Below are positions 19,501 to 27,692 of a stretch of 64,000 bases of DNA, piece after piece (positions within the stretch are counted from its first letter, which is position 1; every line of letters starts with the position of its first letter). The DNA lies in assembly GCA_913057145.1 (NCBI GenBank), contig CAJXNJ010000003.1, positions 25,831 to 89,830 of the forward strand. Reading direction: 5' to 3'. Source of the DNA: an uncultured Ectothiorhodospiraceae bacterium (GTDB taxonomy: Bacteria > Pseudomonadota > Gammaproteobacteria > Nitrococcales > Nitrococcaceae). Both the position numbers and the translations under genes were made by a program. The notes beneath the pieces were generated by a model that worked only from the letters and a program-made list of their open reading frames with translations, was not told the origin of the DNA and did no database searches.

Positions 19501-22500
19501 CTAATGAAAATCTCTTGAGCGGGTCTCCAGGCGGCCGAGCAGGTGGCTGTAATCTTCCAGTCGCCCGGCAACCAGATGACAGACATCACCGCGTCGCTCC
19601 CAGATTCCGACAACGCCCAGCAGTCTGGCACCGATCACCAGACTGCGTTCGCGCTGCGCCAGATCCTTCCAGATGACGACATTGGTACTGCCGCTTTCAT
19701 CTTCCAGGGTCAGGAAGACAACGCCACCCGCAGCCCCCGGTCGCTGACGATTGATGACAAGGCCTGCGCAGCGGGCAATGCGCCGATGTCCTACTGCAGA
19801 CAGCGCACTCGATGGACGGTAGCCCCGACGTTGCAGGTGAGCGCGCAGAAACGCCATGGGATGCTCGCCAAGTGTCAGCCCCATGCTGCGATAGTCACTG
19901 ACGAGATCATCGGCCTTGGACGGGGCAGGCAGTGTATGAGCGCTGTCCTGATGCGGGGCTTGCTCCAGTAGCGGGCCATTGGCCTCGACGCCCAGCACCT
20001 GCCACCAGGCCTGGTGGCGATGACCGCCAAGGCTGCTGAGGGCGCCGGCATCGGCCAGCGCGCGCAAGTGGCTGCGGTCGAGCCCCGCTCGTCGAGCCAT
20101 GGTCGCGACATCGTGAAAAGGCCCTTGTTGGTCGCGGCTGGTGCTGATGCGCTTGGCAGCGGTCTCACCCAGTCCACGAATCAAGCGCATGCCAAGCCGC
20201 AGCGCATGCTGATGGGGGCGAGCCGGGTCGTGCTCCAGTGTGCAGTCCCAGTCGCTCTCACAGACATCGACGCCACGGACTTCAACGCCATGGGCGCGCG
20301 CATCGCGAACCAACTGAGCCGGCGCATAAAAGCCCATGGGTTGGCTGTTGAGCAGGGCGCAGACGAAAACAGCCGGGTAGTGATGCTTAATCCATGCCGA
20401 GACATAAACCAGTAAAGCAAAGCTCGCCGCGTGAGATTCGGGAAATCCGTACTCTCCGAATCCGCAGATCTGCTCGAAGAGGCGTTCGGCGAAAGCGGGT
20501 GAATAGCCGCGCTCAGCCATGCCCTGGAGCAGTCGCTCACGAAAGGGTCCCAGACCCCCGCGTTTTTTCCATGCGGCCATGGCCCGGCGCAGTTGATCGG
20601 CCTCACCGGGCGAGAAGCCGGCCGCCACGATGGCAAGCTGCATGACCTGTTCCTGGAAGATTGGCACGCCGAGAGTGCGCTCCAACACCCCGCGTACGGC
20701 ATCGCTGGGATAATCGATGGCTTCCTCGCCATTACGCCGACGCAGGTAGGGATGCACCATATCGCCCTGAATGGGCCCGGGTCGGACGATGGAGATTTCA
20801 ATCACCAGATCATAAAAGCAGCGCGGCCGCAGTCTTGGGAGCATGGCCATTTGTGCCCGTGACTCGACCTGAAACACGCCCATGGTGTCAGCGCGACAGA
20901 GCATGTCGTAGACGCCCGGGTCTTCGGCGGGGATATCGGCAAGCCCCAGACGCCGGCCATGATGCTGTTCAATCAAATCAAAACTGCGACGAATGGCACT
21001 GAGCATGCCCAGAGCCAGACAATCGACTTTGAGTAGGCCCAGTGTCTCGAGATCATCCTTGTCCCATTGAATGATGCTGCGCCCGGCCATGGCGGCATCC
21101 TCTGTGGGCACGAGTTCGCTCAGTGGCCCCTGGCTGATCACGAATCCGCCGACGTGCTGTGAGAGATGCCGGGGGAAGCCGATGATTTCATGCACCAGGC
21201 TCAACAGGCGCTGGATCATGGCGTTGTCAGGGTCAAAGCCGGCTTCCCGCAGACGCTCGGGCGCGATATGCCGGCCATCCCACCATTGCATCGTCCGGGT
21301 CAGCCGTTCGATCTGATCGGTTTCCAGCCCCAGCGCCTTGCCGACATCCCGTAATGCGCTGCGGGGGCGGTAGCAGATGACAGTGGCCGCCAGAGCAGCC
21401 CGATGGCGGCCGTATTTTTGATAAATGTACTGAATGACCTCTTCGCGGCGGTCGTGTTCGAAATCGACGTCAATATCCGGGGGTTCGCGTCGTTCCCGTG
21501 AGATGAAGCGCTCGAACAGAAGGCTTGATCGGACCGGGTCGACAGAGGTGATGCCGAGGCAGTAGCAGACAGCGGAATTGGCCGCCGATCCGCGCCCCTG
21601 ACAGAGAATGCCGCGACTGCGTGCGAAGGCAACGATGTCATGGACGGTGAGAAAATAAGGCTCGTAGGCAAGCTCATGAATTAATGCAAGCTCGTGTTCA
21701 ACCGCTTGCCGCACCCGCTCCGGCATACCCTCGGGCCAGCGCTCACGTCCACCTTGTTCAACCAGCTCGCGCAACCAGCTTGTGGGCGTATGCCCCTCGC
21801 CAATGAGCTCCTCGGGGTATTCATAGCGCAGTTCATCCAGAGAAAAGTGGCAATGACGGGCGATGCGCAGGCTTTCTGCCAGCATCTCGGCCGGATAGAG
21901 GCGGGTGAGTGTGTGGCGCGGACGTAAATGCCCTTCGCCGTTGCTGCTGAGTTCGCCGCTGATTCTCCGCACAGGGGAGCCCTGGCGGATGGCCTGCAGA
22001 GTATCGCGCAGCGCACGTCGGCCCCGTCGGTGCATGGTGACCCCGCCGCTTGCCACGGCCGGCAGACGATAACGCCTGCCCAGTGCCTGACAGTGCGCCA
22101 GCCGCTCCCGGTCATGACCATCGTGTCGGAGTGCACAGGTCACCCAGGCTCTGCCGATGAACGTCTCGGCCACCCAGCTGGCAGCTTCCGGGCTGGTGGT
22201 CGGTTCCACCACCATAAGCGCCAGACATCCGGGTAGTCCGTCCTGCAGGTCTTCACGTGAGAGCCGGTATGCCCCTTTTTTTGCCTGGCTTCGGGCCAGC
22301 GAGATCAAGGCCGAAAGGCGGCCATAAGCACGACGGTCGGGTGCCAGCAGGACGAGATGCAGGCCATCATCGAGGTGAAATTCGCTGCCGATGATCAGCT
22401 GGATGTCTTGTGTCCGGGCTGCTGCATGGGCGCGAACCACACCGGCCAGTGAGCATTCATCGGTTAACGCGATTGCCCGATAGCCAAGCGCTGCGGCCCG

Positions 22501-22590
22501 TCCAACCAGCTCCTCCGGATGAGAGGCGGCGCGCAGAAAGCTGAAATTACTCAGGCAATGCAGTTCGGCATAGTCGGCTGCATCGTTCAT
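19501..22590 (-). CDS. dnaE2: Error-prone DNA polymerase DnaE2 (ImuC)
   Basis: 1029 aa C-family polymerase with N-terminal PHP (YAELHCLSNFSFLRAASHPEELV); next to imuB/imuA. Confidence 0.96.
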   Translation of the reverse strand: MNDAADYAELHCLSNFSFLRAASHPEELVGRAAALGYRAIALTDECSLAGVVRAHAAARTQDIQLIIGSEFHLDDGLHLVLLAPDRRAYGRLSALISLARSQAKKGAYRLSREDLQDGLPGCLALMVVEPTTSPEAASWVAETFIGRAWVTCALRHDGHDRERLAHCQALGRRYRLPAVASGGVTMHRRGRRALRDTLQAIRQGSPVRRISGELSSNGEGHLRPRHTLTRLYPAEMLAESLRIARHCHFSLDELRYEYPEELIGEGHTPTSWLRELVEQGGRERWPEGMPERVRQAVEHELALIHELAYEPYFLTVHDIVAFARSRGILCQGRGSAANSAVCYCLGITSVDPVRSSLLFERFISRERREPPDIDVDFEHDRREEVIQYIYQKYGRHRAALAATVICYRPRSALRDVGKALGLETDQIERLTRTMQWWDGRHIAPERLREAGFDPDNAMIQRLLSLVHEIIGFPRHLSQHVGGFVISQGPLSELVPTEDAAMAGRSIIQWDKDDLETLGLLKVDCLALGMLSAIRRSFDLIEQHHGRRLGLADIPAEDPGVYDMLCRADTMGVFQVESRAQMAMLPRLRPRCFYDLVIEISIVRPGPIQGDMVHPYLRRRNGEEAIDYPSDAVRGVLERTLGVPIFQEQVMQLAIVAAGFSPGEADQLRRAMAAWKKRGGLGPFRERLLQGMAERGYSPAFAERLFEQICGFGEYGFPESHAASFALLVYVSAWIKHHYPAVFVCALLNSQPMGFYAPAQLVRDARAHGVEVRGVDVCESDWDCTLEHDPARPHQHALRLGMRLIRGLGETAAKRISTSRDQQGPFHDVATMARRAGLDRSHLRALADAGALSSLGGHRHQAWWQVLGVEANGPLLEQAPHQDSAHTLPAPSKADDLVSDYRSMGLTLGEHPMAFLRAHLQRRGYRPSSALSAVGHRRIARCAGLVINRQRPGAAGGVVFLTLEDESGSTNVVIWKDLAQRERSLVIGARLLGVVGIWERRGDVCHLVAGRLEDYSHLLGRLETRSRDFH

Positions 22591-22592
22591 GA

Positions 22593-24065
22593 TCAGGCAA
22601 AGATTCCATGCAGATACCAGCTTCGCTCGCCACGGCGTTCACGAAAAACCCATAATCGCTGGCCCTGGCTGTTGCGTGCCTGATAGTAATCGCGTGCGAT
22701 ATCTCCACCATCCCACCAGCCGCTTTCTATCCGCTCAGGGCCGTTTTCGAGTACCAGCGCACCGTTATAGACGGGCTGTCCCTGCTGACAGTTGAGTTGT
22801 TGGGGCTGAGGTAACAGCCAGAAGGGGCGGTCAGCCGGTGTCCGGGTGTGCCGGTTCTGATGACTCGACAAGGGGGCTTTTTGATGCTGGCCGCTGCCGG
22901 GGCGAATATATTGCCAGGCCCGTTCAGGCCGATGCTCGGCGCACAGAGCCAGCGTTTTGACACGATCGCTGCCAAGGCGATTATCGAGTGTCTCAACCAG
23001 AGGCTCCCAGGCAATGGATGGTTCATGCACGGCATCTTCGGTGATCAGGTCAAGCCGATTGTTGCTCCCCTGCATGGCATACAGACGGCCAGCCTGCAGT
23101 GTTATCCCCGTTATGCCGTCTTTAATGCTGAGTCGCTCCAGTCTGCGCTCGAGCAGCAACCGCATGTGTGCAGCATCACGCCCTGGCCTGAGCAGGCCCA
23201 GCGTGAACGGCAGGGCTTCGCTGCTTTGTTGCGCGAGTGTAAAACGCAGTCGCATGACACCGGCGTCACGCCGGCGCAGGTCGGCACAAAGTCCTTCAAT
23301 GAGCTGTGCCATGCCGGGGTAGAGCTGCTGTACATCGGTAATCGGCTCGAGAAATTCCATCTCACTGCGAAACTGCGCGGGTGGCGTCCAGTCCGCTCGT
23401 GGATCGGGGCGTTCTCCATGCGCTTTCTGCAGCGTGTGTATGAGGGCCTTGCCGAGTCGGCGCAGTGCACCAGCGGTAGGCAACGCGCGAATATCACCGA
23501 TGCAGTGACAGCCAAGGCCTTGTAGTGCTGTGCTTTGTTTGGCATCAAGCGCCAGGACATCCACCGGCAGTGATGCCAGTGCATGATTCAGCTCACTGCG
23601 CTGCATGACGGGTGTCTGTCTGCCGCTGCGCGCCATCAGGCCAGCCGCCGTTGGTGTCGGGGCAATGCCCATCATGACTCGATGGCCGAGTCTGTGGAGT
23701 CCCTGATGGATTTTTTGTCGCAGCGGCTCAAGGCCCTGGAAATAGCGCAGGCTGCCGCCAATCTCAAGTAACAGACCAGAGGGTGGGTCGAGACTGACAC
23801 GGGCGGTGAACTGCCCGGCCCAGGTGGCCAGCTGTTCCAGTCTTTTTTGCTCGTTCTGAATAACCCGGGGGTGATGACGTAAATCTTCGGCCAGTGCATG
23901 GGCGGCGGATGGCGTCATGCCAATTTTAATGCCATGACGACAGGCCTGGCGGTTACAGTCGATGACTGCACCGGCCTCGCTGATAATCAGCGGGCGATCA
24001 CCGGTCTCGGCATCGCCGAATGACTCCACCGGTAAATGAGGCAGGTAGATACATAGCCAGAGCAT
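22593..24065 (-). CDS. imuB: DNA polymerase Y family protein ImuB
   Basis: MLWLCIYLPHLPVESF start, Y-family fold, position between imuA and dnaE2. Confidence 0.93.
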   Translation of the reverse strand: MLWLCIYLPHLPVESFGDAETGDRPLIISEAGAVIDCNRQACRHGIKIGMTPSAAHALAEDLRHHPRVIQNEQKRLEQLATWAGQFTARVSLDPPSGLLLEIGGSLRYFQGLEPLRQKIHQGLHRLGHRVMMGIAPTPTAAGLMARSGRQTPVMQRSELNHALASLPVDVLALDAKQSTALQGLGCHCIGDIRALPTAGALRRLGKALIHTLQKAHGERPDPRADWTPPAQFRSEMEFLEPITDVQQLYPGMAQLIEGLCADLRRRDAGVMRLRFTLAQQSSEALPFTLGLLRPGRDAAHMRLLLERRLERLSIKDGITGITLQAGRLYAMQGSNNRLDLITEDAVHEPSIAWEPLVETLDNRLGSDRVKTLALCAEHRPERAWQYIRPGSGQHQKAPLSSHQNRHTRTPADRPFWLLPQPQQLNCQQGQPVYNGALVLENGPERIESGWWDGGDIARDYYQARNSQGQRLWVFRERRGERSWYLHGIFA

Positions 24066-24101: not shown

Positions 24102-24776
24102 TCAAGGCTCAAGCGGCAATGCCTGCTGCTGGCGTACGGGCGAGCCTGCCCAGTGATCCAGGCTGATGCTGCCGGCGGGGGTGCCGCGACATTTGAGGAT
24201 GCGTACATTCAGTCGCTCCCTGCTGCTGTCCTCCAGCATCAGTCGCAGGGCTGCCGGTGAGCGTTGTTGGGCAGCAGTCTGTTCCCTGAAAAGCAGCCCG
24301 AGACTGTCGCCGGCCTCTGCAGCGAGCTGCAGACGGCGCAGGCTGCGCTCATCACATTGTCGCGGCCACAGCAGTACGGCGGCACAGGTGCCGGAGCGCA
24401 GTGCCTGCTCAACAGCCCATAAGCTTTGGCTGGCCTCTCCGGGGTGGACTGTCAGGACGCGTGAGAGATCCAGGCCCTGAGCTGCCAGTGCCGGGGCATA
24501 AGGCAGGAAGGGTGGGGCAACCATGGCAATCCAGCGGCCGCCACGAGAGAGTCTTGCCAGCGCGGGCATCAGTAGCTGTAGTTCTCCCATACCGTGCCGA
24601 CCGTGCAGAATTTCCGTGAGTGCCGCGGGTGGCAGACCACCGCCCGGCAATACGCTATCCAGTGCCGAGAAGCCGGTGGGAATATGCCGCTCTGATGCAT
24701 GATCCCGGGTGCCGCCCTGGTCGGTGGCGCGCCAGATGCCGGGCTGTTCGAGTAGTTGGTCAATGGCCTGTTGCAT
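24102..24776 (-). CDS. imuA: Translesion DNA synthesis-associated protein ImuA
   Basis: HIPTGFSALDSVLPGGGLPPAALTEILHGRHGMGELQLLMPAL; start re-assigned to 24776 (ORF track start 25040 runs into lexA). Confidence 0.92.
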   Translation of the reverse strand: MQQAIDQLLEQPGIWRATDQGGTRDHASERHIPTGFSALDSVLPGGGLPPAALTEILHGRHGMGELQLLMPALARLSRGGRWIAMVAPPFLPYAPALAAQGLDLSRVLTVHPGEASQSLWAVEQALRSGTCAAVLLWPRQCDERSLRRLQLAAEAGDSLGLLFREQTAAQQRSPAALRLMLEDSSRERLNVRILKCRGTPAGSISLDHWAGSPVRQQQALPLEP

Positions 24777-24801: not shown

Positions 24802-25422
24802 TTAAAGCCCGGAGCGAATAACACCGACACCGATCCCCTCGATGACCAGTTCGTCCTGACGAAGATCAAGCGTGATGGGATTGAAGTCGGGGTTTTCCGG
24901 GAGCAGCTGTACCTGATGTCCCTGACGCGAAAAGCGCTTGACGGTGACTTCGTCATGCAGACGGGCCACGACAATCTGTCCTTCGCGTGCGTCACTGGTG
25001 CGATGAACCGCCAGCAGGTCGCCATCGAGAATGCCGGCATCGCGCATGCTCATTCCACGAACGCGCAGCAGATAATCCGCACCGGGGGAGAAAAGGCCGG
25101 CGCTGACCTGGTAGTGATGATCGACATGCGCTTCTGCCAGCATCGGGCTGCCTGCTGCTACCCGTCCGATCACCGGCAGTCCGTTTTCTTCTTCGTCCTC
25201 CTCGATGGGCTCCGCGCACAGGCGAATGCCGCGGGAGGCGCCGGGCTGCAGGGTGATGGCGCCTTTTCGTGCCAGCGCCCGCAGATGCTGCTCAGCGGCA
25301 TTGGCTGAGCGAAAACCGAGCGCCTCGGCAATTTCACTGCGCGTGGGCGGATAGCCGCTGCGCTCAATGAAAGCCTGAATCAGATCAAGAATCTGTTGTT
25401 GACGCGGTGTGAGTTGATCCAT
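24802..25422 (-). CDS. lexA: SOS repressor LexA
   Basis: [37 protein letters not shown]; Ala-Gly cleavage site (RVAAGSPML), catalytic Ser (GMSM) and Lys regions; start at 25422. Confidence 0.97.
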
Positions 25423-25424
25423 GG

Positions 25425-25458
25425 GTGTTAATTTATACAGTACTGTATGGATATGCAA
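25425..25458. promoter_or_regulatory. Putative LexA operator region between lexA and relA
   Basis: GTGTTAATTTATACAG (25425-25440) matches CTGT-N8-ACAG at 7/8 core bases; TACTGTATGGATATGCAATA (25441-25460) matches the E. coli SOS consensus at 16/20; they abut in a perfect 14-bp palindrome ATACAGTACTGTAT (25435-25448). Confidence 0.65.
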
Positions 25459-25484
25459 TAGCTGAAAGCGATAAAATATTGGCT

Positions 25485-27692
25485 ATGGTCCAATCGAGTG
25501 AACAATCAGCCGCCAATCGCCCGGGGGATCAGTCCTTTGGCGATTGGCTCGAGGGTTTGCCGCTGAGCCTGCATGACGCCGAACGCGAGCGGCTTCATGC
25601 AGCCTGGCAATTGGCGGTCGATCAGTATGGCGAGCAGACCCGAACGCTCACTGACCGGCGCATCGATCATGCCCTGAGCGTGGCGGAAATCCTCGCCTCC
25701 CTCGGCCTGGATGCCGACTCTCTGATTGCCGCACTGCTGCACGATTTACCCCTTTGTGATGGTCCGGATGTGGCTGAGATTGCCAGGGTGGCGGGGCGCA
25801 CAGTGGCCGATCTGGTCGAGGGCGGTCTGCGGATGCAGCAGGTCAGTCGCCTGCATGCAGCCGGTCAGGACAGTCATGCCGGTGAGCGTGCCGAAGCCCT
25901 GCGCAAAATGCTGCTGGCCATGGCCCGCGATATTCGTGTGGTGTTTCTGGTCCTCGCGGAGCGATTGCACGACATGCGCCTTTTGCGTGCGCTGCCGCAA
26001 GCCGAACAGCGGCGGATCGCCCGCGAGACCCTCGATCTTTACGCCCCGCTCGCCAACCGTCTGGGTATCTGGCAGATCAAATGGGAGCTTGAGGATCTTG
26101 CTTTCCGCCATCTCGAGCCCGAGTCGTATCAGCGCATCGCCCGGCTGCTCTCCGAGAAGCGGGTCGATCGCGAGCGTTTTATCGAATCCATGCGTGAGCG
26201 TATCGCCTCAGCCCTGGATGCTGCGGGTATTGCTGCCGAGGTCACCGGCCGGCCCAAGCACATCTACAGCATCTACCGGAAGATGCAGCGCAAGGGCCTG
26301 GGTTTTGATGAACTCTATGATCTGCGGGCGCTGCGGGTCCTGGTTGAGGACATACCGGCCTGTTATGCCGCCCTCGGCGTGGTGCACAGTCTCTGGCAGC
26401 CGATTGCGCGTGAGTTTGATGACTACATCGCAAGCCCCAAGGAAAACGACTATCGCTCGCTGCATACGGCGGTGGTCGGTGATGGCGGTCGGGCGGTGGA
26501 GGTCCAGATCCGCACTCATCAGATGCATGAGCAGGCCGAGCTCGGTATTGCAGCCCACTGGCGTTACAAGGAAGGCCGCGGCGAGGATCCGGATTTTGAC
26601 GCCCGTGTGGTCTGGCTGCGTAAATTGCTCGAATCATCGGCGGAGGCCGATGAGGATTTTATTGACCGCTTTCGTGCCGAGGTCTTTCAGGACCGGGTCT
26701 ATGTGATTACCCCACAGGGTGATGTGGTTGATCTGCCCAATGGCGCAACGCCCCTTGATTTTGCCTACAGCATTCACAGCGAAATCGGGCATCGCTGTCG
26801 CGGTGCCCGGGTCAATGGCCGCATCGTGCCGCTGACGCGGGTTCTGCAGACGGGCGATCAGGTCGAGATCATGACCACGCGCAGTGGTACACCCAGTCGC
26901 GATTGGCTCAATCCGGCGCTTGGCTATTTGCACTCCGCCCGGGCCCGTCACAAGGTTCGCGCCTGGTTCCGTCAGCAGGATCACGACAAGAATGTGGAGC
27001 TGGGGCGTGAGCTGCTCTCCCGCGAGCTGCATCGTCTCGGGCTGGAAGGCATTAATCTCGAGCATCTCGCCGAGCGTTCAAAATTCCCCAGGCTGCCGGA
27101 TTTTCTGGCAGCGGTCGGGCGTGGCGATATCAGCGGTGGTCAGATTGCCGGTTTGCTGCGGGACAAGCTGTTGCCGGCAGCCAGCGAGGGTTTTGCGCCG
27201 GCACCGAGTCGCCGTGGCGCGGCTGCCGGGCGCAAACCTGCCGCCGATGACATTCGCATCTACGGGGTGGGCAACCTGCTCACGCGGCTTGCCCGCTGCT
27301 GTCAGCCGGCCCCGGGGGATACCATTGTCGGGTTTATTACCCGCGGTGAGGGCGTCACGATCCATCGTCAGGACTGCCGCAACCTGGCCCGCTTGCAGGA
27401 GAAGTCACCGGAGCGGCTCATTGATGTGAGCTGGAGTGATGAAACCGGTCAGCATTATCCGGTGGACATCACTGTCGAGGCCTATGATCGCCAGGGGCTG
27501 ATCCGCGATATCTCCTCGCTGCTGAACAATGAAGGGATTAACGTGACCGCCGTGAATACCCGGACCGATCCGCAGGATCAGGTGGCGCGCATGACCCTGA
27601 CCGTTGAGATCGGCGATGTCGATCAGCTCAGCCGGGTGATGGAGCGGATTGCCGGGCTGCGCAATATTCGGGATGTGCATCGTGCGAGCTAG
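25485..27692 (+). CDS. relA: RelA/SpoT family (p)ppGpp synthetase, RelA-like
   Basis: Synthetase, TGS and ACT regions (GRPKHIYSIYRKMQRKG, YRSLHTAVVG, VITPQGDVVDLPNGATPLDFAYSIHSEIGHRC); start at 25485. Confidence 0.93.
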   Translation: MVQSSEQSAANRPGDQSFGDWLEGLPLSLHDAERERLHAAWQLAVDQYGEQTRTLTDRRIDHALSVAEILASLGLDADSLIAALLHDLPLCDGPDVAEIARVAGRTVADLVEGGLRMQQVSRLHAAGQDSHAGERAEALRKMLLAMARDIRVVFLVLAERLHDMRLLRALPQAEQRRIARETLDLYAPLANRLGIWQIKWELEDLAFRHLEPESYQRIARLLSEKRVDRERFIESMRERIASALDAAGIAAEVTGRPKHIYSIYRKMQRKGLGFDELYDLRALRVLVEDIPACYAALGVVHSLWQPIAREFDDYIASPKENDYRSLHTAVVGDGGRAVEVQIRTHQMHEQAELGIAAHWRYKEGRGEDPDFDARVVWLRKLLESSAEADEDFIDRFRAEVFQDRVYVITPQGDVVDLPNGATPLDFAYSIHSEIGHRCRGARVNGRIVPLTRVLQTGDQVEIMTTRSGTPSRDWLNPALGYLHSARARHKVRAWFRQQDHDKNVELGRELLSRELHRLGLEGINLEHLAERSKFPRLPDFLAAVGRGDISGGQIAGLLRDKLLPAASEGFAPAPSRRGAAAGRKPAADDIRIYGVGNLLTRLARCCQPAPGDTIVGFITRGEGVTIHRQDCRNLARLQEKSPERLIDVSWSDETGQHYPVDITVEAYDRQGLIRDISSLLNNEGINVTAVNTRTDPQDQVARMTLTVEIGDVDQLSRVMERIAGLRNIRDVHRAS

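Follow-up and report, generated by a model that had tools for sequence, protein, structure and literature searches.

Links between the SOS and the stringent response are usually indirect. Operators shared by an SOS gene and a divergent neighbor have a precedent in E. coli, where uvrA and ssb share one SOS box that overlaps the uvrA −35 element, and where ssb, with this shared box, is strongly expressed already at the basal level and only modestly induced (PMC9505508). A second precedent is lexA2-imuA-imuB-imuC of Pseudomonas putida (PMC3901139), which resembles the locus described here in that an autoregulated lexA heads a mutagenesis operon. In addition, other proteobacteria often have two boxes 5′ of lexA at a distance of 17–20 bp. 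In this work, we analyzed a stretch of 64,000 nucleotides (hereafter the window) from a 1.6-Mb assembly that is 86% complete. It combines these features, a LexA-headed mutasome cassette and two adjacent boxes, with a divergent relA gene.

On the minus strand of the window, lexA (24802–25422; TIGR00498, 245 bits against a cut-off of 111 bits), imuA (24102–24776; NF033429 ImuA, 223 bits), imuB (22593–24065) and dnaE2 (imuC, the error-prone polymerase gene; 19501–22590; PRK05672, 1511 bits) follow one another in the identity and order of the cassette. No NCBIfam model matched imuB, which was assigned by position and by homology between loci (tblastn, as the gene after imuA in related loci); it is conserved among relatives in the expected position. 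The (p)ppGpp synthetase gene relA lies on the plus strand (25485–27692; PRK10872 GTP diphosphokinase, 759 bits), and a second RelA/SpoT homolog is present elsewhere in the genome. The sequences and coordinates given for the intergenic region by a first-pass annotation match the letters of the window. The divergent starts were borne out, with the lexA ATG at 25422–25420 (minus strand) and the relA ATG at 25485 (plus strand), separated by a gap of 62 bp. Both SOS boxes that had been named are there, i.e., the lexA-proximal box 1 (GTGTTAATTTATACAG, 25425–25440; CTGTATAAATTAACAC on the lexA (minus) strand) and the relA-proximal box 2 (CTGTATGGATATGCAA, 25443–25458, plus strand), as is the perfect 14-bp palindrome ATACAGTACTGTAT (25435–25448). 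The boxes had also been described as overlapping, which they do not: 2 bp (TA) separate them, and their centers are 18 bp apart. Box 1 overlaps the predicted lexA −10 element TAAATT (25430–25435, minus strand), and the −35 elements predicted for the two promoters lie in box 2. These are TTGCAT for lexA (25453–25458, minus strand; spacer of 17, TTG invariant in 14/14 genomes of the genus) and, from a consensus scan, TGGATA for relA (25448–25453, plus strand; spacer of 18, TGGAT invariant in 14/14). The predicted relA −10 element TAAAAT (25472–25477, plus strand) ends 7 nt 5′ of the relA ATG.

We scored the boxes with a matrix whose only source was a set of 20 LexA boxes published for E. coli (PMC3009722). 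Box 1, with 16.9 bits, and box 2, with about 13.1 bits, ranked first and second of all window positions, and the next site reached 7.8 bits. In 9.6 Mb of sequence simulated with the dinucleotide statistics of the window, 4 sites scored at least as high as box 1 and 45 at least as high as box 2; genome-wide, 13-bit sites are expected by chance at about 5 per Mb. Because such sites arise by chance, it is position and conservation, and not the score alone, that make box 2 credible. Genuine E. coli boxes span 11.0 bits (dinG) to 26.5 bits (dinD) upon leave-one-out scoring, a range that includes box 2, and ATCCATACAG of box 2 also occurs in the sulA and ftsK boxes of E. coli (PMC3009722). In four species of the genus, box 2 drops to 8–10 bits with the E. 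coli matrix. An alternative matrix derived from the lexA boxes of the order gave it only 4.9 bits; we preferred the E. coli matrix because that of the order is circular and is shaped mainly by strong lexA boxes. When compared with CTG-N10-CAG, box 1 is a match with a final C instead of the consensus G in the window genome, G041 and G045, the last base being canonical in 11 of the 14 genus members. In box 2, the inner half is perfect and invariant, and the outer half retains TTG only. The two boxes are not chance matches, and the observation is real.

Our genus sample comprised 14 genomes of 1.2–2.2 Mb. Motif conservation in orthologous regions had been proposed as a check of the operator, and the arrangement is kept in all 14, which have TGTYAATNTATACAGTACTGTATGGATNNNCAA in common. 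Box 1 is present throughout as CTGTATANATTRACA, and the inner half of box 2, CTGTATGGAT, is invariant. Of the 56 columns in the alignment, 34 do not vary, including a contiguous run of 18, compared with only 2 invariant positions among 100 fourfold-degenerate relA sites in the same genomes. From this difference it follows that the element is under strong selection.

The LexA protein itself fits these boxes and, judged by its sequence, is of the E. coli type. Residues 2–205 align with the full-length chains of E. coli LexA structures, the recognition helix RSPNAAEEHLKALARKG is nearly identical to its E. coli counterpart with NAAE kept, and the cleavage and catalytic motifs are intact in the E. 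coli alignment (RVAAG with the AAG site, GMSM with the serine, VTVKR). No second LexA was found in the window genome, which at 86% completeness yielded a single match, and the complete genomes of the genus likewise have a single LexA. The matrix score, the conservation in 14/14 genomes and the matching recognition helix strongly support the first-pass reading of a LexA operator for lexA-imuA-imuB-dnaE2, which is also backed by the same motif 5′ of dnaE2 in relatives with an unlinked dnaE2 (G032, G019), where a good box lies directly upstream of the gene. The boxes very likely function as operators. Together with their conservation, the type of LexA and the operon, they can be read from the sequence and its comparison with relatives.

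Almost all lexA-imuA-imuB loci of the order have a box of the E. coli type directly 5′ of lexA, and the LexA motif appears to track the mutasome genes. In consensus searches of the complete genus genomes, sequences closely matching the lexA box were confined to lexA, save for hits at background level, all genome-wide statements on boxes being based on pattern searches. A wider pattern, CTGTWN8CAG, was discarded as its counts in three genomes were at or below control. Likewise, the best extra hit, a 21.4-bit site in G042, was rejected as a regulon member, since it falls inside an ORF of 639 aa and is not matched by any site in the G044 list. In the window's family, the 300 bp 5′ of recA contained neither a CTG-N10-CAG of meaningful score nor a GTTC-N7-GTTC. 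The classical picture of an SOS regulon, with recA under LexA, would thus not apply, and LexA apparently does not control recA in this family. As the sole box found by these searches is at lexA and there is none at recA, the LexA of the genus looks like a cassette repressor. The recA loci (L150–L163, L165–L167, L173) have a conserved GGGGTGGG...TGGGATAAT promoter instead of an SOS box.

Several other genera of the order encode a second LexA that is 35–42% identical (L050–L055) and absent from the window's genus; the repeats 5′ of its gene are of the GAGAAC / GTTC type and resemble the alphaproteobacterial GTTC-N7-GTTC box. No LexA match at an E value of 1e-10 came from G033–G037, the five genomes (95–100% complete) of another genus in the window's family. 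Furthermore, relatives contain strong extra LexA boxes near short or unidentified ORFs (L223, L215, L221, L219), among them a perfect CTGTATATATATACAG in G031. It is possible that these boxes mark new members of the LexA regulon.

The first-pass annotation had regarded box 1 as unusually close to the lexA start codon. The short distance was confirmed, with 2 bp between box 1 and the ATG, but it is no anomaly. Most genomes of the genus have some 25–30 bp between box 1 and the lexA ATG; the spacing of 2 bp recurs in G043 and G046, and in two genomes of another family (G029, G030) the box is similarly close. In the window genome, G043 and G046, the lexA ATG comes 7 nt after the end of the predicted −10 element, and the lexA mRNA is predicted to be leaderless, which would account for the closeness of box 1. 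Since the window genome (G000) and G043 are not sisters in our tree (weak support; G046 left out), this closeness may have arisen twice. A TTGC-type hexamer recurs 5′ of lexA in several single-box outgroups.

On the other side of the spacer, relA is divergent to lexA in almost all examinable loci of the order. Among the best 80 LexA relatives, some on contigs that end early, no named locus from other groups had a divergent relA. Within the order, only the window's genus has the squeezed spacer, with a relA-lexA gap of about 61–90 bp; elsewhere in the order, it measures about 100–360 bp, and about 1.1 kb in one case. In these outgroups, the relA −10 element (usually TA(C/G)AAT) lies at least 30 bp past the nearest box, and the relA leader is long. 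In all 14 genus genomes, the relA −10 element TA(A/G/T)A(A/C)T follows 19 bp after the invariant GGAT and ends 6–7 nt before the relA ATG. This position puts the predicted transcription start at the ATG itself and the −35 element TGGAT inside box 2, and the relA mRNA of the genus is hence predicted to be leaderless. Between the −10 element and the operator, the sequence varies and the spacing is fixed, a pattern expected of a promoter. Streamlining has been described for Spiribacter, whose genomes have median spacers of 14–19 nt (PMC3832224). The small genomes and compact spacers of the window's genus would fit Spiribacter, and the members of the window's genus are streamlined, probably salt-loving bacteria.

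On balance, we lean slightly toward a shared operator that autoregulates the lexA mutasome operon and at which LexA on box 2 partly represses relA. The 62-bp spacer would then work as a compact bidirectional control region in which two LexA dimers occupy the neighboring boxes. LexA on box 1 would cover the −10 element of the lexA operon and LexA on box 2 its −35 element, so that the operon is off. Upon DNA damage, RecA would trigger self-cleavage of LexA, and lexA-imuA-imuB-dnaE2 would be freed. Genome streamlining may have brought the relA promoter close, with its −35 element in box 2 and its −10 element abutting the relA start codon. In undamaged cells, LexA on box 2 might partly repress relA by blocking this −35 element, much as has been reported for uvrA at the operator that it shares with ssb in E. 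coli (PMC9505508), and DNA damage might modestly raise relA transcription alongside that of the mutagenic polymerase genes. Such an effect on relA is plausible geometrically and sterically; we estimate the chances that LexA influences relA as about even. More tentatively, the LexA of the genus could be a single-operator repressor, whose one site rules the mutasome operon and relA as a divergon with both transcripts leaderless and both raised by damage, a proposal that we find conceivable but on the doubtful side.

The operator might also serve lexA-imuA-imuB-dnaE2 only. A housekeeping relA promoter would have been pushed against it by streamlining, a trait of the compact Spiribacter genomes (PMC3832224), and box 2 would be conserved for the −35 elements of both promoters. 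The outer, relA-side half of box 2 varies (ATG, GTT, TAA, ATT, GAT), and only CAA is constant, which doubles as the predicted lexA −35 element. This half is not retained as a LexA half-site, which counts against relA control, as do the lower box 2 scores in four species and the modest induction of ssb from its shared box in E. coli (PMC9505508). Outside the genus, moreover, relA and lexA have promoters that lie apart from each other despite an unchanged gene order. Selection on the relA −35 element (TGGAT) may be what preserves the inner half of box 2, and box 1 alone, which ends near −44 of relA, might fail to repress relA. However, CTGTATGGAT exceeds any −35 element in length, and it persists in the sister genome G038, where relA is 290 bp away and has its own −10 element; the half-site is therefore not retained for the relA −35 element alone. 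Given also the second rank of box 2 among the LexA sites of the window, we consider an operator for the mutasome operon only rather doubtful.

Promoter exclusion, with RNA polymerase occupying only one of the two promoters at a time, appears unlikely. The predicted lexA (25430–25458) and relA (25448–25477) promoters overlap, with starts about 62 bp apart and interleaved −35 elements, and their spacing is fixed in 14/14 genus genomes. Once LexA has been cleaved, a firing lexA promoter would hence occlude relA, and damage would lower relA expression; overlapping promoters alone could lead to reciprocal expression of lexA and relA. Both promoters are predictions, however, and the lexA leader differs in length among the species of the genus while the operator core stays fixed. 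Moreover, promoter exclusion is compatible with LexA repression of relA. A site for a different regulator common to lexA and relA, as the perfect palindrome ATACAGTACTGTAT, invariant in 14 genomes, might suggest, was rejected as very improbable, because the palindrome occurs in exactly one copy per genus genome, none of 40 further genomes from the order contains it, and it is fully accounted for by two LexA boxes whose inner half-sites abut.

If LexA indeed partly represses relA from box 2, the SOS and the stringent response would be wired together directly, through one LexA operator placed over the promoters of the mutasome operon and of relA. We found no report of LexA control of relA in the literature. 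The genus would also provide a natural case of an SOS system apparently cut to one operator, with recA outside, and would illustrate how promoter compaction rewires regulation with the gene order unchanged.

A shared LexA operator is of a known kind, and it is relA as the partner gene that is unusual. As in uvrA/ssb, one LexA operator region lies between divergent genes and over a −35 element, and one partner is a housekeeping gene (PMC9505508). In contrast, uvrA and ssb both belong to DNA metabolism, whereas here the partner encodes a (p)ppGpp synthetase. Furthermore, the uvrA/ssb box is single and 170 nt away from ssb, a gene with two additional promoters (PMC9505508), whereas the present locus has two boxes within 62 bp in all. 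Like P. putida LexA2, the LexA of the genus appears largely devoted to a mutagenesis cassette; unlike in P. putida, the box is of the E. coli type, this LexA is the only one found in the genus, and relA is divergent (PMC3901139). Finally, the two adjacent boxes 5′ of lexA and the E. coli-type LexA recall the E. coli lexA operator, from which the locus differs in its 18-bp spacing, in a box 1 that abuts the start codon and in a box 2 that overlaps the divergent promoter.
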